From Candidatus Poribacteria bacterium (GTDB taxonomy: Bacteria; Poribacteria; WGA-4E; WGA-3G), in NCBI GenBank assembly GCA_009841255.1, contig VXMD01000073.1, positions 1 through 64,000 on the forward strand: 64,000 nt of DNA, in the 5' to 3' direction. This document shows, piece by piece, positions 7,985-24,665 of the stretch. The notes under the pieces were generated by a model. It saw only the letters and a program-made list of their open reading frames with translations. It did no database searches and was not told where the DNA came from. The position numbers were made by a program, and so were the translations under genes. How positions within the stretch are numbered: position 1 is the first letter of the stretch; each line of letters begins with the position of its first letter.

Positions 7985-8067
7985 TATTTTTTTCTGATAT
8001 GAATTTCAGAAACGATCCGGTGTTTAATGATACAAAATGCCCGCCCTTAAATGGGGGGAATTCTTAC

Positions 8068-8153
8068 AGGAGGAACCCTTGCATCTGGTAAATACGCAAG
8101 GAAAATTAGAAAAATGTCTCAAGAAACTCAAGAAGCCACATCACCTTGTTTAG
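8068..8153 (+). other. Possible short leader ORF with strong Shine-Dalgarno upstream of aspS
   Basis: AGGAGG at 8068-8073 sits five bases before a TTG at 8079 that opens a 24-codon frame ending at 8153, overlapping the first codons of aspS in another frame. The strong ribosome site does not serve the likely aspS start, whose own site (AAGGA at 8098) is weaker. It may be a regulatory leader or chance. Confidence 0.25.
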
Positions 8154-10141
8154 AACGGACCCATTATTGTGGAGACCTACGCTTAACCGATGCAGGTACA
8201 ACTGCGCAGCTCAACGGTTGGGTCAACCGCCGTCGAGACCACGGTGGTGTCATTTTCGTTGATTTACGCGACAGGACCGGCATCACGCAGGTTGTCTTTG
8301 ATCCACAGATTGATGAAAAGGCACACGCCCTTGCAGATGCTGTCAGAGGTGAGTATGTGTTGAACGTCAGTGGCATCGTCCGTGAGCGTGATCCGGGCGA
8401 ATTGCTCTTCCACGCAGACGCCGCATACGAAACGGAACTCGCCGATGGCAACCTCTCCCCAGCGTTCCGAACCTTGTTTTCGGATGTTGATACGAAGTAC
8501 ACCCTCTCTGAAGAAATTGAGATAGCGACCCGTGTCGCTGGCGCCCGATGGCTACTCACCGATGTCGAAAATAATCGGACGTATCACATCGAAAATACGG
8601 AAGACGGTCTCAGCATTCATCAAGGCACGGTCAACCCGGAACTCGACACGGGTGAGATTGAACTTGCTGTGGATTCTCTGAATATTCTGAATACTGCCAA
8701 AACGCCGCCATTCCCAGTTGAAGACGATATCGATGTCGCGGAAGACATTCGGATGCGTTATCGATTTATCGATCTGCGTCGTCCTGAGATGCAGAAAACT
8801 TTAGCGATGCGGCATAAAGCGGCGCTGGCAGCACGCAACTATATGAACGAAGAGGGCTTCCTTGAGATCGAGACTCCCATTTTGATGAACAGTACACCCG
8901 AAGGGGCGCGCGACGTACTCGTTCCAAGTCGTCATTACGCCGGTAGATTCTACGCGCTTCCGCAATCACCGCAACAATTTAAACAGATTCTGATGATGAG
9001 CGGGGTCGATCGGTACTTCCAGATAGCACGTTGTTTCCGGGATGAGGACACCCGTTCCGACAGACAGTTGGAATTCACGCAACTTGATATTGAGATGTCA
9101 TTCGCGGGGGTGGACGATGTGCTTGAGGTAACCGAAGGGTTGATGAAACGGATATTTGAGGATGCGGGTGGCATTCCTGTTCAAACGCCTTTCTTACGGC
9201 TGCCGTATCACGAATCGATGGCGCGGTTCGGAAACGACAAACCGGATACGCGATTTGGCATGGAACTCACCGATCTGTCGGATGTCATGGCAGATTGTGA
9301 TTTTCAGGTGTTCACTCGCACTTTGTCTGCGGGCGGGCAGGTTAAATCGATTGCTGCCCCAGGCGGCGCCGACTTTTCACGTAAAGACATCGACGATCTC
9401 ACCGCCTTCGTTGCCACTTATCGAGCAAAAGGGTTGGCATGGGTCAAAGTCACGACAGACGGATTTTCATCGGGGATCGTCAAGTTCTTCACAACGGAAC
9501 AACTCGAAACAGCACAGGAGAGAACAGGCGCGAAACCGGGTGACATCATGTTCTTTGTCGCTGACACGCCGAAGGTCGTCGCCGATGCACTCGGGAATCT
9601 CCGTCTCCACCTCGGACGCAAACTGAATCTTATTGACCAAGCCCGATACAACTTCCTGTGGATCGTTGATTATCCACTGTTTGAGTGGAATGAGGAGGAG
9701 AATCGCTATGAGCCCTTCCACCATCTGTTCACCGGAGGGACAGAAGAGACTTTACCGTTATTAGACACGGATCCGGGGCAGGTTCAGAGCCAACACTACG
9801 ATCTCGTGTGCAACGGGTATGAGATCTGTAGCGGAAGTGTCAGGATCCATCAATGGGATATCCAACAAAAGGTTTTCGATGTTCTGGACATCACACCGGA
9901 AGAGGTCGAAAGCCGATTTGGCTATTTCATAGACGCGTTAGCGTATGGCACGCCGCCGCATGCAGGCATTGCCCCAGGTTTAGACCGGATTGTCATGCTG
10001 ATGCGGAACGAGGAGAACATCCGCGAGGTCATCGCGTTCCCGAAATCACAACAGGGACTCTGTCCGCTTACACACGCGCCGTCTCTTGTAACGGATGCAC
10101 AACTGGAAGAACTCTCAATTCGCGTTGACGGAGATGTCTAA
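8114..10141 (+). CDS. aspS: Aspartyl-tRNA synthetase with inserted segment
   Basis: A 675-residue class II synthetase that charges tRNA with aspartate. It has the N-terminal OB-fold (WVNRRRDHGGVIFVDLRDR), class II motif 2 (FQIARCFRDEDTRSDRQLEF), a GAD insertion domain typical of bacteria, and motif 3 (GIAPGLDRIVML). The ATG at 8114 gives MSQETQ, close to the usual family start; the ATG at 8051 would add 21 untypical residues. Bacterial AspRS is usually near 590 residues. The excess is mainly a block at residues 95-170 (8396-8622), between VRERDPG and GTVNPELDTGEIE, inside the anticodon-binding domain. The rest of the enzyme looks intact, so it should be functional. Confidence 0.97.
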   Translation: MSQETQEATSPCLERTHYCGDLRLTDAGTTAQLNGWVNRRRDHGGVIFVDLRDRTGITQVVFDPQIDEKAHALADAVRGEYVLNVSGIVRERDPGELLFHADAAYETELADGNLSPAFRTLFSDVDTKYTLSEEIEIATRVAGARWLLTDVENNRTYHIENTEDGLSIHQGTVNPELDTGEIELAVDSLNILNTAKTPPFPVEDDIDVAEDIRMRYRFIDLRRPEMQKTLAMRHKAALAARNYMNEEGFLEIETPILMNSTPEGARDVLVPSRHYAGRFYALPQSPQQFKQILMMSGVDRYFQIARCFRDEDTRSDRQLEFTQLDIEMSFAGVDDVLEVTEGLMKRIFEDAGGIPVQTPFLRLPYHESMARFGNDKPDTRFGMELTDLSDVMADCDFQVFTRTLSAGGQVKSIAAPGGADFSRKDIDDLTAFVATYRAKGLAWVKVTTDGFSSGIVKFFTTEQLETAQERTGAKPGDIMFFVADTPKVVADALGNLRLHLGRKLNLIDQARYNFLWIVDYPLFEWNEEENRYEPFHHLFTGGTEETLPLLDTDPGQVQSQHYDLVCNGYEICSGSVRIHQWDIQQKVFDVLDITPEEVESRFGYFIDALAYGTPPHAGIAPGLDRIVMLMRNEENIREVIAFPKSQQGLCPLTHAPSLVTDAQLEELSIRVDGDV

Positions 10142-13388: not shown

Positions 13389-14150
13389 ATGCAAGAAAAC
13401 ATAGGTGCTGCCCCGAAACTCCAAAGCGGCGCAGTCCACAAGCATATAGTGGAATACCCCGAATCAGACGGAGAACCGATGGCAGAAACCCCGAAGCATC
13501 AACAGGTGATGATAGATTGTATGGATACCCTCCGAAGACATTTCCGTGAGGTTCCAGATGTGTTTATCGCAGGCAATATGTTCCTGTATTACGAAGAAGG
13601 GAATCCCCGGAAGAGCATCTCCCCGGACGTGTTCATGGTTCAAGGGGTCTCTGAAAAAGATATCCGAACCTATAAAACTTGGGAACACCCGCCGACGCTT
13701 GATTTTGTGTTAGAGGTTGCGAGTCCGAGCACCATTGAAAACGACCTGACAAGAAAAAAGGAGATTTACGCCACGATTCTTCGGGTCAAAGAGTATTACA
13801 TCTACGATCCGTATCATGAGAGTGATCCGTTTTTTATCGGTTTTCGGCTTGTCGGTGAAGTCTATCAAGAAATACCCTTTGTGGATGGACGCCTCTCTTC
13901 CAGGGTGTTGGGTTTAGAGTTAGGCGAGTCTGATGGGCTGCTGCGGTTGTATAACCCCGTTACCTCCGTGTGGCTACTCCCGTCTCAAGAACGCGTAGAC
14001 GCGGCGGAGACCCGTGCTAACGCGGCGGAAACTCGCGCATCACAAGAATCTATCGCACGTCAAACCCTTGAAGTCGAACTCGCTGCAGCGCGCGCAGCCC
14101 TGAAACAACTACAAACTTCCGAAGAATCCGAATCAGGAGGAACATCGTGA
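13389..14150 (+). CDS. Uma2-family (DUF820) PD-(D/E)XK protein, copy 2
   Basis: A 253-residue Uma2/DUF820 protein with EYPESDGEPMAE, SPDVFMVQGVSEKDI, LDFVLEVASPST and YYIYDPYHE. It is the most divergent of the three copies here: it has a different segment after PMAE (TPKHQQVMIDCMDTLRRHF) and a shorter coiled-coil tail. AAGGAGATAAGGCG precedes the ATG and closely matches the leader of copy 3. Its stop overlaps the GTG start of the next gene (GTGA), so production of this intracellular protein is coupled to that of a large secreted one. The reason is unknown. Confidence 0.85.
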   Translation: MQENIGAAPKLQSGAVHKHIVEYPESDGEPMAETPKHQQVMIDCMDTLRRHFREVPDVFIAGNMFLYYEEGNPRKSISPDVFMVQGVSEKDIRTYKTWEHPPTLDFVLEVASPSTIENDLTRKKEIYATILRVKEYYIYDPYHESDPFFIGFRLVGEVYQEIPFVDGRLSSRVLGLELGESDGLLRLYNPVTSVWLLPSQERVDAAETRANAAETRASQESIARQTLEVELAAARAALKQLQTSEESESGGTS

Positions 14151-17100
14151 AATTGCTGAGATACCTCTCCGTTATGTTTCTCGTATGCTTCGCGTCAGGC
14201 GCCGGGACAACGCATGCCCAACAAAACATCGCTCAAGAGGCATATCTTATCTTTGAAAAGAGTTGTCTCGGTTGCCATGGTCCCCACGGTCCCTATACAG
14301 AACAACTCGTCATTGAATCAGCATCAGGACTGATTGATATAGGAGCGGTCGTGCCCGGAGCACCGCTCGTCTCCGAACTCTATACACGCCTGACGACAAT
14401 AGACACCGCAAAACGGATGCCCTTGAATCAACCCAAACTTGACGCTGCCGCTATTGACACGATTGCCGAGTGGATTTTAGCAGGTGCCCCGAGCTGGGAA
14501 CTCCAGCACGATGTCGACTTCATCTCCACCGATGCGATGCTCACGAGCATTCAGAACCATCTGAAGACGCTGGATGCTTTCAGTCGTCCCTTCGCCCGGT
14601 ATTTCACGATGACGCACCTCTATAACGCGGGTGTTGGACCTGCGGCACTTCGTGCGTATCGCGTTGCCCTCTCGAAACTCGTCAATAGTCTCTCATGGGG
14701 GTTCGATATTATCAATCCACAACCGATTGACACACAAGAGACAATCTTCCACATTGACCTACGCGACTATGAATGGGACACGCGTGATGCCTGGACACAG
14801 GTTGAAGCCGTCTATCCGTATACCATAGACTTTGATGAAACCCAGCAGCGACAGCTGCACAACAAGTTAGCAGCACTGCGTGAAGACATGGCGTGTGAAG
14901 TGCCGTTCGTGTATGCGGATTGGTTTCTTGCAACAGCCTCGCTGCCGCCGCTCTATCACGACATTCTCGCATTACCCCTAACCGAGCGCGAGTTGGAACG
15001 GGAGTTACGGATAGATGTAGCACGAAATCTCCTGGCTGCCCCGGGGGTTCGGGTGTGGCGTGCGGGGACCAACGATTCGGGTGTTTCCAACCACAACCGG
15101 GTGGTAGAGCGTCATACATCTCCGTATGGTGCGTATTGGAAGAGCCACGACTTTGCGAGCAGTGTGGGTCGGAAGAATATCTTCCTGCATCCGTTGTCAT
15201 TTGATCGGGACGGAGGTGAAGTGATCTTCAATTTACCGAACGGGTTGCAGGCGTATTACATCTCCGATGGAGCCGGCAATCGCATAGATGTTGCGCCGAC
15301 AGAGATTGTCTCGAATCCTGCGGCGAGCGATCCTGCGGTGCGTAACGGGTTGTCGTGTATCGGTTGCCATACGGAGGGGATGAAGGATTTTGAAGATGGG
15401 GTGCGTGCTGTCGTCAATCAGACACAGAACCCGGCGTATGATAAGGATCATGCGTTGCGTCTGTATGTAGAACAGGCGCAGATGAATGTTCTCGTAGCCG
15501 AGGATTCGGCGCGCTATGAGGACGCGTTAGCAAAGGCAGGAGGTGTTTCAGGAGGCATTGAACCCGTGCATCGTTTCTACGAGGCATATCAGGGACCTAT
15601 AACCGTGCAATATGCTGCAGCGGCTGTCGGGATGGAGCCGACTGCCTTCATATCACAGGTTGAAAAGAAGTCGAGCCTACAGCGGTTGGGGCTCGCTGCA
15701 CTTGCCAACGATGGGAATGTGAAACGGGATGTGTGGACAGCACAGTTTTCTGAGGTCGTATTGGCGTTGCAATCCCCGGATGTGGTTGTTCCCGAGCCGT
15801 CTCGGCTTACCCGTCAGGTTCCACCTGTGTTGGGTAGCACGGTGAGCCTTCCGGATGTCAACCTGCGTGCCGCAATCGCAGAAAGATTGGGCAAAGCACC
15901 AAACGCCTTGATTACGCCCGATGATATGAAACGGTTGACCGAACTTTTTGCTGATGAGAAAGGCATCCGGGATTTGACAGGGCTGGAGTATGCGGTGAAC
16001 TTGGAACGGATAGAGGTGCGACACAATGCGATATCTGACTTGTCTCCGTTGTCAGGATTGACACATCTGAATAACATCAAGCTGCGTGGCAATCAGATTA
16101 CGGATGTCTCCGCGCTTGCGAAGTTAGTCAACGTGGATTGGATGGGGCTGGAGGAGAACCAGATAACCGACCTATCGCCCCTGGCAGGTCTGAAGAAGCT
16201 CAACGGCATCGGCATTTCTGGCAATCCGATAACAGACGTATCCCCGCTTGCGAGCATCACGCGTCTGGAAGGTATTTCGGCATGGAACACATCTATCACG
16301 GACCTTTCTGCGTTGGTGAAGTTGCCACGTCTCCGATGGATAGAATTCGGTGGTAACATCTCCACACTGCCGTCTCTGAAGGGTTTAAAGACCTTGAGAC
16401 GCTTGGAAATGAGGCATACCCGTATCTCGGACATCTCTGGACTCTCAGCACTGACACAACTCCAAGAGTTAGACCTCCACGATAACTTGATAACGGATAT
16501 ATCGCCTATAGCAAATTTAAAAGCGTTAAAAACACTGAACCTTCACAAAAATCTCATATCGGATGTTTCGCCCTTAGCGGGATTAACCCAATTAGAACAT
16601 CTTAACCTCCGTGATAACGCCATATCCGACTTCTCGGTGCTCAAGGCGTTATCCGAGAAGATATACATCGAAACACGAAACAACCCTGGGGCTTTCTTGC
16701 AAGGGGGACCGAAAATAATGGGTCCGTGGTTGTGGTTAGTGATACCCGGTGCACAACATGCTGACCTCCATAGCAAAGGAGATTTACTTGCCCGTATGAG
16801 TGGTGGCGATGTAACAGTGCGTAAGATTTCTACCAATGGAGCGGTGGAAGGACAGTCGGTCGGTGATAGCGTCTGGATATCCCACAAAATCTCCGCGAGT
16901 GGAGGCGACAACCTCAATAACCTATTGAGAGCCCTCAGTATACCAAAAGGCGATGGTGAGACCCTAATTTACGGTTCTATTACTTTGGATTCACCACGGG
17001 AGCAAGGAACAAAAATGTTCGCCGGGAGTGATGATACGCACAAGATATGGCTCAACGGGGAGTTAGTTAACACGAGTCACGATTGGCACTACGACTACCA

Positions 17101-18280
17101 GCAATCCTTTCCCGTTAGGCTGAAGAAGGGGAAAAATGTGTTGTTAGTTGCTGTCCATGATTGGGGCGGTGGATTTTGTGGGCATTTCGGGTTTGCCCCG
17201 GATGCTGAGTATACCGTCATTCCTCCCGGTTCTCACTTCTCCCTTGCCACAGATGCAACAGCGTTCCAAAAGGACGATCGCTTCACGCTCCGACTCGCCG
17301 CTACAGAGATGACCGACCTCGCCGGCTGGCAAACCGATATCACCTTCGACCCCGATGTGCTGCGTGCCAATGGTGTCACCGAAGGCGGGTTTCTCAAACA
17401 GAAAAATGGACGCACCCATTTCTTCAAAGGCACCATCAATAACAAAATCGGCAGAATTACGGGGTTAAGTGCTACACGGCTTACCAACGGTGGTGCGACA
17501 GGAGACGGCACCCTCCTCGCTATTAACTTCACTGTGAAGCAAGCCAAGAACACCCGAGTCAGGCTCCGAAACTTCAAAGCCGGGGATAGCACGGGGAAAC
17601 CGATTCCTGCGACGATTCCAGAGTTCAGGATTCGCATAGATATCGAAACCCTGGCTATCCCGGCGTGGGATGTCAATGAAGATGGCGTGACGGATCTCGC
17701 CGATCAACTCATCGTAATTGCGGATGTGCGGAAAAACCCGCCTGCGAATCCGCGTTCAGATGTCAACAAAGATGGGATTGTAGATGAAAAAGACGTAGCC
17801 GTGGTGGCGAACCATCTCGGTGAGAAAAATGATCCTGCCGCCCCTTTACATCTGACGTTGTCTTCGGATTTCACATTCAAAGTGGTTCAAGATGCTCTGG
17901 ATATGTTGCGTGCTGCCGATGATGGGTCGTTCTTCTTCCGTGGCGGTATTGCGAAGCTGGAGATGCTCTTAGCGGTGTTTGTGCCTGAAGAGACGGCACT
18001 CCTCCACAACTATCCGAATCCCTTCAATCCAGAGACATGGATACCGTATCAACTCGCGGAACCTGCGGAAGTGACACTCCGTATCTATGCGGCAACGGGT
18101 GCGTTGGTTCGGACACTCACACTCGGATACCAACCTGCGGGGATCTATCAGTATCGGAGTCGTGCGGCGTATTGGGATGGGAAAAATGACGTGGGTGAAT
18201 CCGTTGCGAGTGGTGTCTATTTCTATACGCTCACCGCAGGCGACTTCACGGCTACCCGCAAAATGCTCATAACGAAATAA
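14147..18280 (+). CDS. Secreted multidomain protein: two CxxCH motifs, LRR, PA14-like, cohesin-like, dockerin-like, sorting domain
   Basis: A 1377-residue protein started by GTG after AGGAGG. A signal peptide (residues 1-25) is followed by CLGCH at residue 40 and CIGCH at residue 404, typical covalent haem sites as in planctomycete-type cytochrome c regions. Residues about 565-835 are leucine-rich repeats. Near 853 the GPKIMGPWLW beta domain begins. A cohesin-like module (AGWQTDITFDPDVLRANGV) lies near 1029-1165. Dockerin-like loops (DVNEDGVTDLADQL, DVNKDGIVDEKDVAV) lie near 1174-1235. The C-terminal sorting module (NYPNPFNPETWIPYQL) closes it. Domain names rest on motif recognition; whether haem is bound and what redox role it has are not shown. 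Confidence 0.8.
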   Translation: MKLLRYLSVMFLVCFASGAGTTHAQQNIAQEAYLIFEKSCLGCHGPHGPYTEQLVIESASGLIDIGAVVPGAPLVSELYTRLTTIDTAKRMPLNQPKLDAAAIDTIAEWILAGAPSWELQHDVDFISTDAMLTSIQNHLKTLDAFSRPFARYFTMTHLYNAGVGPAALRAYRVALSKLVNSLSWGFDIINPQPIDTQETIFHIDLRDYEWDTRDAWTQVEAVYPYTIDFDETQQRQLHNKLAALREDMACEVPFVYADWFLATASLPPLYHDILALPLTERELERELRIDVARNLLAAPGVRVWRAGTNDSGVSNHNRVVERHTSPYGAYWKSHDFASSVGRKNIFLHPLSFDRDGGEVIFNLPNGLQAYYISDGAGNRIDVAPTEIVSNPAASDPAVRNGLSCIGCHTEGMKDFEDGVRAVVNQTQNPAYDKDHALRLYVEQAQMNVLVAEDSARYEDALAKAGGVSGGIEPVHRFYEAYQGPITVQYAAAAVGMEPTAFISQVEKKSSLQRLGLAALANDGNVKRDVWTAQFSEVVLALQSPDVVVPEPSRLTRQVPPVLGSTVSLPDVNLRAAIAERLGKAPNALITPDDMKRLTELFADEKGIRDLTGLEYAVNLERIEVRHNAISDLSPLSGLTHLNNIKLRGNQITDVSALAKLVNVDWMGLEENQITDLSPLAGLKKLNGIGISGNPITDVSPLASITRLEGISAWNTSITDLSALVKLPRLRWIEFGGNISTLPSLKGLKTLRRLEMRHTRISDISGLSALTQLQELDLHDNLITDISPIANLKALKTLNLHKNLISDVSPLAGLTQLEHLNLRDNAISDFSVLKALSEKIYIETRNNPGAFLQGGPKIMGPWLWLVIPGAQHADLHSKGDLLARMSGGDVTVRKISTNGAVEGQSVGDSVWISHKISASGGDNLNNLLRALSIPKGDGETLIYGSITLDSPREQGTKMFAGSDDTHKIWLNGELVNTSHDWHYDYQQSFPVRLKKGKNVLLVAVHDWGGGFCGHFGFAPDAEYTVIPPGSHFSLATDATAFQKDDRFTLRLAATEMTDLAGWQTDITFDPDVLRANGVTEGGFLKQKNGRTHFFKGTINNKIGRITGLSATRLTNGGATGDGTLLAINFTVKQAKNTRVRLRNFKAGDSTGKPIPATIPEFRIRIDIETLAIPAWDVNEDGVTDLADQLIVIADVRKNPPANPRSDVNKDGIVDEKDVAVVANHLGEKNDPAAPLHLTLSSDFTFKVVQDALDMLRAADDGSFFFRGGIAKLEMLLAVFVPEETALLHNYPNPFNPETWIPYQLAEPAEVTLRIYAATGALVRTLTLGYQPAGIYQYRSRAAYWDGKNDVGESVASGVYFYTLTAGDFTATRKMLITK

Positions 18281-19164: not shown

Positions 19165-20748
19165 ATGAACGAAAACGAAAAGAAACCAAAGGTGAGCCTC
19201 GGTCTGCTTTACGGGATTATCATTGCGATTGTTGCTGGAGCCATCATTGGAGGGTTCGCGCCAAGTTTTGCAGTCCATACAACGATACTCGGTGAGATAT
19301 TTTTAAACTTGCTGAAGATGATAGTGGTGCCCCTCGTTGTCCTGTCCATGATAGTGGGGATAACGAATTTAGGCGATATTCGTAACATCGGTTCCATCGG
19401 CGGACGGACTGTTCTCTACTACATGGCGACAACCGCTATTTCCGTTCTCATCGGGATAATTCTCGTCAACATCATTTTGCCGGGCAAAGGACTCTCGCAA
19501 GGTGAAGCGCGCCCCGAGCTGAGTTACACGCTCTCCGGTCCTGAGATGCTCACTGCTGAATTGAGCGGGGAGTTCAATCGAACCTATAACAATAAATACG
19601 TCATTACCCTCATCGACCAAGACATACGCGGTGAAGTCGAATCAATTTCGGGGACAACCGTCACAGTAAAATCGTGGCAACCGTTCAGGGATGCCCGCTA
19701 TGTCACTACCGACGATGGAGAACGTTTGTTATTTTCTGAGGGTCGGCTCGTCAGGATAGAGCCTAACGCTACCGGTAAAGGCATCGACATCAGCTTGCCC
19801 ATCGCCACAAGGATGTCCGACAAAACCGAACGGACGATGGGCAACACCATCAAAGAGGTATTCCTTGGCAACGAAGCGACCGGTAAAGAGGGGATGATCC
19901 CTTCAAACGTCTTTAAAGCGATGGTGCACACCGACATTTTGCCCTTAATCTTTTTCTCACTTCTCATCGGCGCAGCCTTGTCCATGCTTGGTGATATTGG
20001 CAAACCCGTTGTCTCGGTGATTGCGGGATTAAACGAAGCCGTGATGAAACTCGTTCACTGGATAATGTATGTCGCACCGGTCGGCATTTTCGGTTTAATC
20101 GCGGGTAGAATCGGTGAGGCAAAGGGATTCGCAGGCTTCTGGCCCGAACTCGTTGCAGTCGGAAAATACAGTGCCACCGTATTGTTAGGGCTCGGTTTAC
20201 ACGCGGCTGTCGTTTTACCGTTACTGCTGTTATTCCTCGGACGTAGGAACCCCATCAATTACTTCAAGGGCATGGCGACTGCTTTATTGAATGCCTTTTC
20301 AACGGCGAGTTCAAGTGCGACCCTGCCGCTAACCATGGAAGGCGTTGAGAATCAGAACGGGGTTTCCAGACGGACCTCCAGTTTCGTTCTCCCTTTAGGC
20401 GCCACCATTAACATGGACGGCACCGCACTCTATGAGGCAGTTGCTGTTATGTTCATCGCACAAGTCTATGCGATAAACATGGATCCAGCGCAACAAGTTG
20501 TTGTTGTGCTTACAGCGACTTTGGCGGCAATCGGCGCAGCAGGGATTCCGGAGGCAGGCCTCGTCACAATGGTGATTGTGCTCAGAGCCGTAGACCTCCC
20601 GGTTGAAGGTATCACCCTGATCCTCTCTATCGACTGGTTACTTGACCGGTTTCGAACCGCAATCAACGTCTGGGGTGACAGCATCGGGGCAGGCGTGATT
20701 GAGACGTATGAATCCAGAGATTCAACGGATGCCCCCGCAACCGCTTAA
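19165..20748 (+). CDS. Dicarboxylate/amino acid:cation symporter (DAACS family) with large extracytoplasmic loop
   Basis: A 527-residue secondary transporter that couples uptake of glutamate- or C4-dicarboxylate-type substrates to Na+ or H+. Family signatures are the serine-rich hairpin (NAFSTASSSATLPLTMEGVE) and NMDGTALYEAV. AAGGAGAAAAC precedes the ATG. Usual bacterial members are about 410-440 residues. The extra length lies between the third and fourth membrane helices, roughly residues 112-245. There a polar, beta-rich stretch (IRGEVESISGTTVTVKSW, YVTTDDGERLLFSEGRLVRI) replaces a short loop. The transport core looks intact; the exact substrate is not readable from sequence. Confidence 0.92.
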   Translation: MNENEKKPKVSLGLLYGIIIAIVAGAIIGGFAPSFAVHTTILGEIFLNLLKMIVVPLVVLSMIVGITNLGDIRNIGSIGGRTVLYYMATTAISVLIGIILVNIILPGKGLSQGEARPELSYTLSGPEMLTAELSGEFNRTYNNKYVITLIDQDIRGEVESISGTTVTVKSWQPFRDARYVTTDDGERLLFSEGRLVRIEPNATGKGIDISLPIATRMSDKTERTMGNTIKEVFLGNEATGKEGMIPSNVFKAMVHTDILPLIFFSLLIGAALSMLGDIGKPVVSVIAGLNEAVMKLVHWIMYVAPVGIFGLIAGRIGEAKGFAGFWPELVAVGKYSATVLLGLGLHAAVVLPLLLLFLGRRNPINYFKGMATALLNAFSTASSSATLPLTMEGVENQNGVSRRTSSFVLPLGATINMDGTALYEAVAVMFIAQVYAINMDPAQQVVVVLTATLAAIGAAGIPEAGLVTMVIVLRAVDLPVEGITLILSIDWLLDRFRTAINVWGDSIGAGVIETYESRDSTDAPATA

Positions 20749-20840: not shown

Positions 20841-23069
20841 ATGACTATGCAAAATGAGCCGAATCCACAGCAGCCAGCGCTCAACCTTACAGCGATTCTC
20901 TCAATTATCAGCGTCGTGCTCGCCGCCGGATGGATAGCCTTTGCCTATTACAAAGGCAGTGCTAATAGCAGTCGAATACTGCTGCTGCATCCAGTCGTGC
21001 CGATACTACTGATTGTGCTGCTTATTCGCGTTTACCGCTGGATTGACCTAAAAAGCATCGTCATCCTTGAAATACTGATGATAGCGATGTGGATTTTTAT
21101 ACGCTTGTTGGGCGTGTTGACCCCTTTCATTTTAGGATTCGGCTTCGCTTATATCTTTAGGTTCCTCTGGAATGCCCTCCCGTTCAAAGCGCGCTATCAA
21201 CGTGGGATCGCAACTGTCCTGATTGTACTCGTCTGTGGCGGATTGCTCTTTTACACCGGAAAACAGGTGAGTAAACAAGCAAGTCAGATGGGCAGCGGGT
21301 TACTGAAGTTTTATCATGAAACTGTTCTGCCTTATGTCGTGGGTGAAACATTTGAGGCGATCGCTATCAGTGTTAATAGCAGTCAGCAAGAGAACCTCTC
21401 AACCGAAGGTTCCGGACGACTAATGGCTGATAGCCAATACATGGAGACGTTCTACCTCGGGACGAACCACGGTGTCTATGAAATTCGACAGGGAGTCGAA
21501 AGGGAACTCGACCGTATCGGTCTCACGAACGGCGCACTCCTCGGTAAATCCATACAAGCACTTGCAGCGTCTGGAGACACACTCTACGCCGGTACGCCGA
21601 GTGGATTATATCGTTACTACAAGGCGTTGCCTACGGATGTCCCTGAACCAATCAACGGCGATGCAACAAGTCCCCAGAACATCAAACCGAAGATATGGCA
21701 CAAGGTTCAAGGGACCCCTTTCGATACGACTTCCGTCCAAGCTATCAACGTTCCGAATTGGGATAATACCCAGATTTATGTTGGAACACAAAAAGGGCTT
21801 TACAGCAGTAAGGATTTAGGCCAAACATGGCGTGAGGTTGCCCCTAACATTTATAGTGAAAGGTCCATCATCAGTATTGTTTCCATTGTGGATACGAATA
21901 GTGATCGGACAATTTATGTCGCCAGCACAGCGATAATTGATGCGAGGTCCTCCCAACGGACAGTTCTGACGCCTAAGGTTACAACATTACATTGGTATCT
22001 GGAGGACTCCTCTCTTGAGTGGAATCCGCTTCCGTCTATAATAACGCACCCGGTTTACGCGCTTGCCAGTGGCGGCAGAACATGGATTGATAAGGAAGCG
22101 GGGTTACAAATCCCACCTACAGAGGCGTTTGATATTGAACTGTACGCCGGTACGTCCGATGGGCTTTATGAATGGCATCGTCTCGGCACGTGGCGGAAAA
22201 CGGAAGGCACTGCTGCGGTCTCGTTATTAGCGTCGGCACCTTCCGGCGTATACATCGGCACCGAAACCGTTATCCTGCATCGCGCGACGTCTACAGCCGG
22301 ATGGCAACCGCTTACCACACGGAAGGAAGGGGTCAGTTACACCTATAGGGACGAGCCTATTGTCCAGCAGGTGAAAACATACTTGACCGAAAGAATTCCA
22401 ACAATAGCCCAAACCGGTAGTGAATTCGTGAGAGAAGGGGTTCAGTTTGCGGGTTCGATCGCTTTTGGGTTCGGTGGGTTTTTAGCCACAGTGTCCCTCG
22501 CGTTTGTTGTGTTTGTCTATACAAGCCAATCCTTTGATAACTATTTTCGGAGTTTCACTCTGCTGGTGCCTGAACTTCATCGTGAAACCGTCAAGACTTA
22601 TCTGCGCGAGATTGATAAGAATCTGCAGCAGTTCTTGAAAGGACTCGTCACAGTCATTGTGATTGTGTCGGCAGTTTCCTGCATTGCGTACAGCATTATC
22701 GGTGTGCCGTTCGCATTGGTTATCGGCTTACTCGCAGGAATTTGTAATGCCATACCGACCTTCGGACCCTTTATCGGCGGCGGTTTCGCATACATAGCGA
22801 TGCTGATGGGGTTGGCGGCTGGGGATTTCGGTATAGTTGACTTCCTCATTCGCAGTGCTTTTCTATTGGTTGCCATTCTTGGCATCCAGATGCTCGACAA
22901 CTCATTGATTTCACCGAAAATTATGAGCACTGCTGTGGATGTAGATCCACTGCTTATCATGTTTGCTGTGCTTGTTGGGGCAACCGTACTCGGTTTTTGG
23001 GGTGTATTGCTTGCAATTCCTATTATTGTTGTGGTAAAATCGGTTATTGCTGTTTCTCAATCTTCTTAA
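20841..23069 (+). CDS. AI-2E-type membrane protein with inserted beta-propeller-like region
   Basis: A 742-residue protein whose two ends match the AI-2E transporter family (PF01594-type). N-terminal membrane helices include LLGVLTPFILGFGFAYIFRFLW; the C-terminal part has FLKGLVTVIVIVSAV, GLLAGICNAIPTFGPFIGG and LDNSLISPKIMS. Ordinary members are about 350 residues. Here residues about 178-505 hold repeats such as FYLGTNHGVYEI, LYAGTPSGLYRY, IYVGTQKGLYSSKDLGQTW and LYAGTSDGLYEW, like the Asp-box/BNR blades of sortilin- or Ycf48-type propellers. Family members are exporters or antiporters of varied substrates; AI-2 itself is not implied. No clear ribosome site precedes the ATG. Confidence 0.85.
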   Translation: MTMQNEPNPQQPALNLTAILSIISVVLAAGWIAFAYYKGSANSSRILLLHPVVPILLIVLLIRVYRWIDLKSIVILEILMIAMWIFIRLLGVLTPFILGFGFAYIFRFLWNALPFKARYQRGIATVLIVLVCGGLLFYTGKQVSKQASQMGSGLLKFYHETVLPYVVGETFEAIAISVNSSQQENLSTEGSGRLMADSQYMETFYLGTNHGVYEIRQGVERELDRIGLTNGALLGKSIQALAASGDTLYAGTPSGLYRYYKALPTDVPEPINGDATSPQNIKPKIWHKVQGTPFDTTSVQAINVPNWDNTQIYVGTQKGLYSSKDLGQTWREVAPNIYSERSIISIVSIVDTNSDRTIYVASTAIIDARSSQRTVLTPKVTTLHWYLEDSSLEWNPLPSIITHPVYALASGGRTWIDKEAGLQIPPTEAFDIELYAGTSDGLYEWHRLGTWRKTEGTAAVSLLASAPSGVYIGTETVILHRATSTAGWQPLTTRKEGVSYTYRDEPIVQQVKTYLTERIPTIAQTGSEFVREGVQFAGSIAFGFGGFLATVSLAFVVFVYTSQSFDNYFRSFTLLVPELHRETVKTYLREIDKNLQQFLKGLVTVIVIVSAVSCIAYSIIGVPFALVIGLLAGICNAIPTFGPFIGGGFAYIAMLMGLAAGDFGIVDFLIRSAFLLVAILGIQMLDNSLISPKIMSTAVDVDPLLIMFAVLVGATVLGFWGVLLAIPIIVVVKSVIAVSQSS

Positions 23070-23246: not shown

Positions 23247-24665
23247 ATGGAAACTGGACGCCCCATTGTTGTAATCGTCGGCAGACCGAATGTCGGCAAA
23301 TCATCACTCTTCAATCGAATTACCGGAAACAGTCGACGGCAGAAGAATCGCTCTCGGTTAAGAGATGATCCTGTTGAACCAGAGGCACCTTTAACTGATA
23401 ACCCTAAAGTCGCCAGCCGTTTGTCGCGTAAATACGCTGTCGTCCACGATACCCCCGGTGTAACGCGCGACAGAAACTATGCTGACGTGGAATGGGCAGA
23501 CCGCGCTTTTACCATTGTAGATACCGGCGGTTTGGACGTCGATCCGGACGACCGACTCATTGATAATGTTCAATCGCAGGTGGATGTCGCCTTGGCTGAA
23601 GCGAGCCTCGTCCTTTTTGTCGTTGACGCACGGACCGGTATCATGCCGCACGACATGGTTGTCGTTGATAAACTCAGAACTGCTGATAAACCTATCTTCC
23701 TTGTCGTCAATAAGGTAGATAGCGACCGATTTCACAATGAAGCCGCCGAGTTTTACGCGCTCGGATTGCCAGAGCCGATGTGGACCTCGTGTGTCCAAAA
23801 TGATGGAATTCGGGAACTCCTCGACCGTGTCGTTGAGACCCTTCCAGAGACTGACGCAACTGTCCACGACGCGCCTGTCACAACGAAAATCGCTATTGTT
23901 GGCAGACCGAATGTTGGCAAGTCCTCGCTTATCAACAGTTTGTTAGGTGAAGAGCGGATGATCGTCGATGATCGCCCCGGAACCACGCGCGACGCAGTGA
24001 ATATCCGAATCGTCCACGACAACATTCCCTTTGAAGTCGTTGATACGGCGGGAATGCGGCGTAAATCCGCTATCAACGATGAACTTGAGTCCGCAACCGT
24101 GCAACGCGCGATACACAGTATTCGCCAAAGCGACATCGCTGTACTCGTGCTGGATGTGACTCAGGATGTCGCACAACAGGATAAGACTATCGCCAATTTC
24201 ATTGAGCGACAGGGGAAAGCGTCCGTTTTGGTCATGAACAAGTGGGACCTCATCGACAAGGATAGCACAACGCATCCAATGTTCATGGATGCGATAGATG
24301 CGCAACTCCCACAACTCGGTTATGTCCCACGGGTCTTTGTTTCCGCACTAACGGGGCAACGCGTTACGCAAATACTAACGACTGCACTTGAGGTTTATCG
24401 TGAGTATTGTACGCATATCCCTACACCGGCACTCAACGACTTGCTTCTGGAGTTACGCAATGCCCATCCACCACCGCGAGTTAAAGGGGCACGTCCTGCC
24501 CTCAAATATATCACGCAGGTGGAGACCAAACCGCCCACTTTTTTAATCTTCGGACGCAATATTCATCGCGTGCAGCAGCCATATCAGGCGTACCTCGTCA
24601 ACAGTATCCGGAGGGAATTCGGATTTCACGGCACACCGATACGGATCTTTTATCGTAGGTCGTAA
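23247..24665 (+). CDS. der: Ribosome-assembly GTPase Der (EngA)
   Basis: A 472-residue double-GTPase needed for assembly of the large ribosomal subunit. First G domain: VGRPNVGKSSLFNRITG, DTPGVTRDR, DTGG, NKVDSD. Second: VGRPNVGKSSLINSLLGEE, RPGTTRDAV, DTAGMRR, NKWD. The KH-like C-terminal domain ends HGTPIRIFYRR, as is typical. About 33 extra residues (28-60, rich in Arg, Asp and Pro) separate the first Walker A motif from its switch I region, where other Der proteins have only a few residues. The gene appears leaderless (TATAAT directly upstream). Confidence 0.96.
   Translation: METGRPIVVIVGRPNVGKSSLFNRITGNSRRQKNRSRLRDDPVEPEAPLTDNPKVASRLSRKYAVVHDTPGVTRDRNYADVEWADRAFTIVDTGGLDVDPDDRLIDNVQSQVDVALAEASLVLFVVDARTGIMPHDMVVVDKLRTADKPIFLVVNKVDSDRFHNEAAEFYALGLPEPMWTSCVQNDGIRELLDRVVETLPETDATVHDAPVTTKIAIVGRPNVGKSSLINSLLGEERMIVDDRPGTTRDAVNIRIVHDNIPFEVVDTAGMRRKSAINDELESATVQRAIHSIRQSDIAVLVLDVTQDVAQQDKTIANFIERQGKASVLVMNKWDLIDKDSTTHPMFMDAIDAQLPQLGYVPRVFVSALTGQRVTQILTTALEVYREYCTHIPTPALNDLLLELRNAHPPPRVKGARPALKYITQVETKPPTFLIFGRNIHRVQQPYQAYLVNSIRREFGFHGTPIRIFYRRS

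Follow-up and report, generated by a model that had tools for sequence, protein, structure and literature searches.

Members of the AI-2E transporter family are found in most bacteria and in many archaea, and their substrates and gating are unsettled. The window analyzed here, a stretch of 64,000 nucleotides of contig VXMD01000073.1 from a Candidatus Poribacteria bacterium, carries a gene of this family in which about 335 residues lie between the two halves of the family domain. The questions raised by this locus are what the additional residues form, how they were acquired, and what they may do for the transporter.

An AI-2E family gene with a split domain

The gene and its conserved neighbors are as follows.
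19165..20748, + strand: DAACS/SDF symporter gene, conserved upstream neighbor (PF00375)
20841..23069, + strand: AI-2E family transporter gene with the predicted propeller insert, 742 residues (uninterrupted open reading frame; PF01594 match)
23247..24665, + strand: Der/EngA GTPase gene, conserved downstream neighbor (named from sequence)

A Pfam profile search assigned the 742-residue protein to the AI-2E family (PF01594) with a score of 124.4 bits, the curated cutoff being 34.3 bits. This confirmed the family membership proposed by an initial annotation based on the sequence alone. The match consists of two stretches flanking the insert, the stronger of which begins at residue 525. The spacing between these halves, about 335 residues, agrees with the proposal that an insert of about 330 residues splits the family domain. 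Comparison with insert-free orthologs placed the limits of the insert at residues ~165 to 170 and ~505 to 510. The coordinates first assigned to it (21372 to 22356, residues 178 to 505) were thus right within about 10 residues, with a start located 7 to 10 residues too late. The gene is the only PF01594 gene found in its own genome, and AI-2E proteins were detected in 13 of 14 control genomes. The sequence match to the solved TqsA structure (7nb6) reached only E = 0.0027. We discarded an assembly artifact or a gene fusion error because the gene is intact and because no fewer than 53 further loci, including some on single-contig genomes, have the same architecture.

The family name gives no information on the substrate of this transporter, AI-2 being suggested by the name alone. 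No luxS gene was recognized in the genome of origin, which argues against self-made AI-2 as the substrate and leaves AI-2 export without support as the function of the protein. Members of the UPF0118 antiporter group contain an Asp residue in motif C (DFiPIiGSI) and an Arg-Arg pair in motif D (IRRTVEPKVMG) (PMC7221264). By-eye comparison with these motifs revealed that the corresponding positions of the window protein read NAIPTFGPFIGG and GIQMLDNSLISPKIM. The diagnostic residues are therefore absent, and assignment to this group of Na+(Li+)/H+ antiporters was rejected.

The DAACS and Der neighbors are kept in most loci, and two loci encoding insert-free orthologs (L117 and L119) share the DAACS-AI2E-Der gene order of the window. 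The DAACS/EAAT-like symporter itself contains residues (~110 to 251) without a counterpart in the best PDB alignment; this insert follows the third helix and is probably on the outer side. Further upstream (positions 14147 to 18280), the window encodes a 1,377-residue protein combining, according to Pfam, a planctomycete-type cytochrome c, leucine-rich repeats, cohesin, dockerin, and an FlgD-like C-terminal domain.

Predicted fold of the insert

The structure of the protein was modeled with AlphaFold2 (AF2) using as input the window protein and 56 orthologs (57 sequences). The insert was predicted to form the following elements.
21351..22319, + strand: six-bladed beta-propeller insert, residues 171 to 493 (AF2; VIA-align; absent from insert-free orthologs)
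21351..21521, + strand: blade 1, residues 171 to 227 (AF2 strands 171-179, 201-208, 212-217, 223-227)
21558..21704, + strand: blade 2, residues 240 to 288 (AF2 strands 240-244, 247-252, 255-260, 286-288)
21735..21845, + strand: blade 3, residues 299 to 335 (AF2 strands 299-303, 312-316, 320-323, short 331-332)
21861..22028, + strand: blade 4, residues 341 to 396, degenerate unit (AF2 strands 341-350, 356-364, 381-387, short 395-396)
22053..22199, + strand: blade 5, residues 405 to 453 (AF2 strands 405-410, 432-438, 441-446, 451-453)
22224..22319, + strand: blade 6, residues 462 to 493 (AF2 strands 462-466, 469-473, 477-481, 489-493)

The 24 strand positions, two of which are very short, correspond to six blades of four strands. 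Since each blade is complete in sequence, the two ends of the propeller would meet at one place, which fits insertion in a loop. The pLDDT values were mostly near 90 for the insert and between 45 and 80 for most of the membrane helices (mean pLDDT of 73.3 and pTM of 0.59 for the overall model). The low membrane-helix values and the pTM make the relative placement of the propeller and of the membrane part uncertain.

Comparison of the model with solved structures by VIA-align returned mostly six-bladed propellers in the top rows. The best score was obtained with the designed protein Pizza6 (Z = 21.9; root mean square deviation of 2.5 over 227 residues), and Z values of about 20 were obtained for nidogen, LRP6, and the RSL lectin, the aligned part of the model comprising residues ~164 to 496. 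We take the propellers of these four proteins to have six blades. The Foldseek match list was a mixture of propellers of many kinds, including GH74 xyloglucanases, BT4663, and BT4673. Together, these results strongly support the prediction that the insert folds as a six-bladed beta-propeller. The propeller fold anticipated by the initial annotation was thus recovered both by AF2 and by VIA-align.

The repeats are also apparent in the sequence. A pattern of the Y-x-G-T-x-x-G-x-Y type was matched five times in the insert (starting at residues 204, 248, 312, 434, and 470); when the insert was shuffled 20,000 times, it was matched 0.011 times on average and never more than once. A sixth, degenerate unit is located near residue 355. 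A single true Asp box, SSKDLGQTW (residues 322 to 330), was found and sits in blade 3. The repeats originally described as four or more Asp-box-like units are thus present and number six, SSKDLGQTW being the sole true Asp box among them. The 742-residue protein had no Pfam match at E values up to 1 with the BNR/Asp-box family or with LDL-receptor class B repeats (YWTD; PF00058), the motif of the insert being YxGT rather than YWTD. Matches with Sortilin-Vps10 (15.2 bits for a cutoff of 33) and with the BNR-type model F510_1955 (30.7 bits for a cutoff of 175) were below threshold. An Asp-box/BNR sialidase-like identity was rejected on the basis of the single Asp box and the lack of a conserved acidic set.

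Membrane part and predicted topology

The following elements were assigned outside the propeller.
20886..21038, + strand: extra N-terminal membrane helix pair, residues 16 to 66 (hydropathy; AF2 helices 16-36 and 52-65)
21051..21338, + strand: TM1 to TM3 of the family domain, residues 71 to 166 (AF2 helices 71-112 and 117-166; charged loops)
22356..22526, + strand: second stalk helix into TM4, residues 506 to 562 (AF2 helix 506-562)
22527..23066, + strand: C-terminal membrane half with the NAIPTFGP and LDNSLISPK motifs (PF01594 positions 121 to 324)

The protein had been described as an otherwise normal family member. It does retain the family domain, but the extra N-terminal helix pair, which is common to the insert-free orthologs, precedes the Pfam domain. 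In the AF2 model, the last ~25 residues of the 71-to-166 region form a stalk helix that projects out of the membrane, and helices 117 to 166 and 506 to 562 are continuous from the base of the propeller into TM3 and TM4, respectively.

Charge counts gave 2.9 Lys plus Arg for 0.8 Asp plus Glu in loop 63 to 73 and 3.6 for 0.4 in loop 105 to 120. Since both loops are rich in basic and poor in acidic residues, in propeller-bearing and insert-free proteins alike, they look cytoplasmic; TM3 would therefore exit outward, and the insert follows TM3. PhoA fusions in UPF0118 located the N terminus in the cytoplasm and three helices before the corresponding TM3-TM4 loop (PMC7221264). The extra N-terminal helix pair makes the assignment by analogy less direct; as the number of added helices is even, the side of the insert would be unchanged. 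The propeller thus probably faces the periplasm, in the TM3-TM4 loop, and the extracytoplasmic location proposed initially is upheld as a prediction by the charge rules and by the UPF0118 fusions.

Distribution and origin of the propeller

Orthologs were searched in 85 Poribacteria genomes and in GTDB species genomes. The propeller was present in at least 54 full-length orthologs spread over related genera, the insert measuring 273 to 388 residues. Insert-free orthologs, found in genomes G024 to G026, G005, G012, and G002, have 23 to 44 residues at the insert site, display ~42 to 57% identity in the C-terminal half, and retain the membrane motifs. In one of them (L032; 55% identity in the C-terminal half), PF01594 positions 5 to 325 are matched in one stretch. 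A pattern-based scan of genome contigs reached only Poribacteria and four weak Firmicutes matches. The architecture is widespread, within Poribacteria only as far as seen.

A midpoint-rooted maximum-likelihood tree, built from 405 columns of the membrane part, grouped all propeller bearers in one clade (support of 77) nested within the insert-free group; f4 adjoins this clade (support of 63), and L035 joins at 100. The propeller clade contains more than 50 full-length proteins, and no loss of the propeller was detected among them. The propeller was most likely gained once, in the ancestor of one Poribacteria group, the support of 77 for the clade being moderate. In the genomes covered, the nearest sequence relatives of the insert are poribacterial sigma factor-propeller proteins (best E values of ~1e-8 to 1e-7); since identity is limited to 25 to 33%, the donor of the propeller cannot be named. 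No relatives of the propeller were found in viral contigs. In the sigma factor-propeller proteins (L052 to L056), which total ~1,000 residues, a membrane helix links an ECF-type sigma factor (regions 2 and 4) to a large Asp-box propeller behind it. There are apparently several per genome, and a membrane-bound sensor-sigma factor design is possible.

Other lineages carry different sequences at the same site. In f7 (L039 to L042), the TM3-TM4 loop holds an insert of 87 to 166 residues, in which the motif G-x-x-V-T-x3-L-x2-L-x3-G occurs once in L039 to L041 and twice in L042; we presume a resemblance to the outer domain of 7TM-HD proteins. Paralogs from genus g9 (L060, L146, and L147) have a further, distinct insert. 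As the propeller, f7, and g9 inserts differ, the TM3-TM4 loop has taken inserts at least three times and can accommodate whole domains.

Selection and conserved residues

In the 25 closest pairs, the ratio of nonsynonymous to synonymous substitutions (dN/dS) was 0.22 to 0.49 for the insert versus 0.04 to 0.27 for the membrane part. The insert is under purifying selection, weaker than that of the membrane part; this conclusion is strongly supported. Likewise, the mean identity of propeller-bearing orthologs to the window protein was 0.50 for the insert versus 0.73 and 0.76 for the membrane parts, the higher value being that of the C-terminal half. The most conserved polar segment of the insert is a loop connecting two blades.
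21519..21554, + strand: loop G-I/L-T-N-G-x3-G-K-x-I, residues 227 to 238, between blades 1 and 2

Residues T229 and G235 of this loop are present in 54 of 54 sequences, and N230, G231, and K236 in about 90% of them. Outside the loop, the conserved residues of the insert are mostly structural (Gly, Trp, Tyr). Over the insert as a whole, Gly, Trp, Tyr, and Thr predominate among the conserved residues, and no conserved cluster of acidic residues was detected in the insert of the 54 sequences. By its conservation, the loop is a candidate binding site.

Possible roles of the propeller

We propose that a six-bladed propeller was inserted, most simply once, in the ancestor of one Poribacteria group, in the periplasmic TM3-TM4 loop of a pre-existing AI-2E transporter encoded between the DAACS gene and der. 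The propeller would act as a platform on which a periplasmic protein, peptide, or glycan binds or docks, and binding would alter the activity of the transporter through the helices leading into TM3 and TM4. Taken as a whole, this scenario has, in our judgment, about an even chance of being correct. That the propeller is such a platform and that binding alters activity appears moderately likely from the model, because the propeller is joined at both ends to helices that extend into TM3 and TM4; these continuous helices permit coupling between the propeller and the channel and do not prove it. More tentatively, the periplasmic propeller may be a built-in receptor controlling the activity of the transporter via the two helices. 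If so, this would be a new mode of gating for AI-2E transporters. Given that different inserts occupy the TM3-TM4 loop in other poribacterial lineages, this loop would then be a site generally open to receptor domains.

Similarly tentative, and nearly as likely as a transport-modulating platform, is a pure docking or anchoring scaffold that would not gate transport and would simply hold the transporter close to a partner in the periplasm, such as a binding protein, the cell wall, or the neighboring DAACS symporter. LRP6 and nidogen, which rank with the best matches in structure, have six-bladed propellers that bind proteins; the range of insert lengths and the evolution of the insert, faster than that of the membrane part, fit a surface platform; and the DAACS and AI-2E genes remain adjacent. 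However, the predicted helical connection of both ends to TM3 and TM4 is a layout that could transmit movement. It is improbable that the propeller captures the substrate of the transporter, or a precursor, and passes it to the channel in the manner of a fused binding protein. RSL, a six-bladed lectin that binds sugars, is one of the close matches in structure, and one polar loop is conserved, but the insert-free orthologs keep the membrane motifs, so that the transport path presumably works without a propeller, and the known members of the family have been described as exporters or antiporters, neither of which needs capture from outside.

We hold as quite improbable that the insert is largely functionless and tolerated in a permissive loop. 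The loop does house different inserts in L039 to L042 and in L060, L146, and L147, and many in-frame insertions are tolerated in Poribacteria, but the dN/dS values, the conservation of the fold and of loop 227 to 238, and the lack of loss in the propeller clade oppose this explanation. A periplasmic enzyme of the BNR/GH74 type is very improbable: GH74 xyloglucanases are present in the Foldseek matches and F510_1955 was weakly matched, but the latter score is far under the cutoff and the conserved acidic cluster is absent. In addition, GH74 enzymes consist of two seven-bladed propellers, versus six blades here.

The propeller-bearing and insert-free orthologs offer a clean comparison with and without the domain, and the soluble propeller is a handle for the search of a ligand or partner.

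A module of about 65 residues inserted in unrelated proteins

A module of ~65 residues (about 220 bp in DNA), revealed by the alignment of AI-2E proteins, occurs in frame within many unrelated poribacterial proteins. In the window, it lies at positions 8426 to 8620, within an open reading frame (8051 to 10141) identified by Pfam as that of an aspartyl-tRNA synthetase (AspRS). This insertion is clean, as residues 113 and 194 align with residues 79 and 82 of a solved AspRS (6hhv). In AI-2E proteins, the module was found at three places, namely, the loop in g9 paralogs (L060), the beginning of the f2 propeller (L043 and L044), and the interior of the G015 propeller (L045). With a threshold of E up to 1e-6, a profile (A4) built from four copies detected the module in 75 of 83 poribacterial genomes, with 2 to 35 copies in each. 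No stops interrupt the frames in which the listed matches are located. Loci with the module include L043, L044, L045, L060, L153, L156, L157, L163, L164, L165, and L170. Other hosts, named by eye from the sequence, are NuoJ-, flagellar rod-, CtaA-, and RpoN-like proteins.

Some copies from different genes of G015 are more similar in DNA (identity of 0.73 to 0.75) than in amino acid sequence (0.58 to 0.64), pointing to copying at the DNA level followed by weak constraint at the protein level. Third-position identity was 0.59 to 0.73 for these copies; divergence is much greater in most of the remaining pairs. One copy (L191, G015:C258) contains short internal duplications (RWLITRWLITDKTKITDKTKKQTY), which suggest slippage or weak constraint. 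The module had no Pfam match and no convincing fold match in the PDB (modest model; pLDDT of 72.6); none was found in plasmids or viral contigs, and no description was found in the literature searched. It looks like a mobile coding element. We liken its behavior to that of the Rickettsia palindromic elements, palindromes having been checked here by rough folding energies only. This finding is perhaps more important than the propeller insert and merits its own study. The propeller insert belongs to a wider poribacterial habit of inserting domains into conserved proteins.

Comparison with known systems

The AI-2E family and the propeller fold are each well known, and no published description of their combination was found. 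The search covered open-licence literature, in which such a negative result is weak evidence of absence; within that literature, the statement of the initial annotation that no example was described holds. The alternative that it had considered, an architecture both widespread and described, proved correct for the first part, in Poribacteria, and no description was found in the literature searched for the second. Repeat proteins are known to abound in Poribacteria, and LDL-receptor class B domains are present as well (PMC3909097), so that a propeller in this phylum is in itself no surprise.

Similar to the other PF01594 members (TqsA/YdgG [PDB 7nb6], YtvI, CxpE, and UPF0118), the window protein has the common helix order, the TM3-TM4 loop, and an NxIPxxGP-type motif, to which it adds the ~335-residue propeller in that loop and the N-terminal helix pair. 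The insert resembles the YWTD/LDL-receptor class B propellers of LRP6 and nidogen in fold and blade number (Z of about 20), but identity is ~8 to 13%, the Pfam family is not matched, and the host is a transporter rather than a receptor. The poribacterial proteins made of an ECF sigma factor, a membrane helix, and a propeller (L052 and L054) are the nearest relatives of the insert in sequence; unlike the window protein, they comprise ~1,000 residues, with sigma-70 regions 2 and 4 in front and many more Asp-box units. BT4663 and BT4673, periplasmic propeller sensors belonging to hybrid or one-component systems, likewise display a propeller outside the membrane on a membrane protein. These sensors are larger and contain multiple propellers, whereas the effector here would be a transporter.
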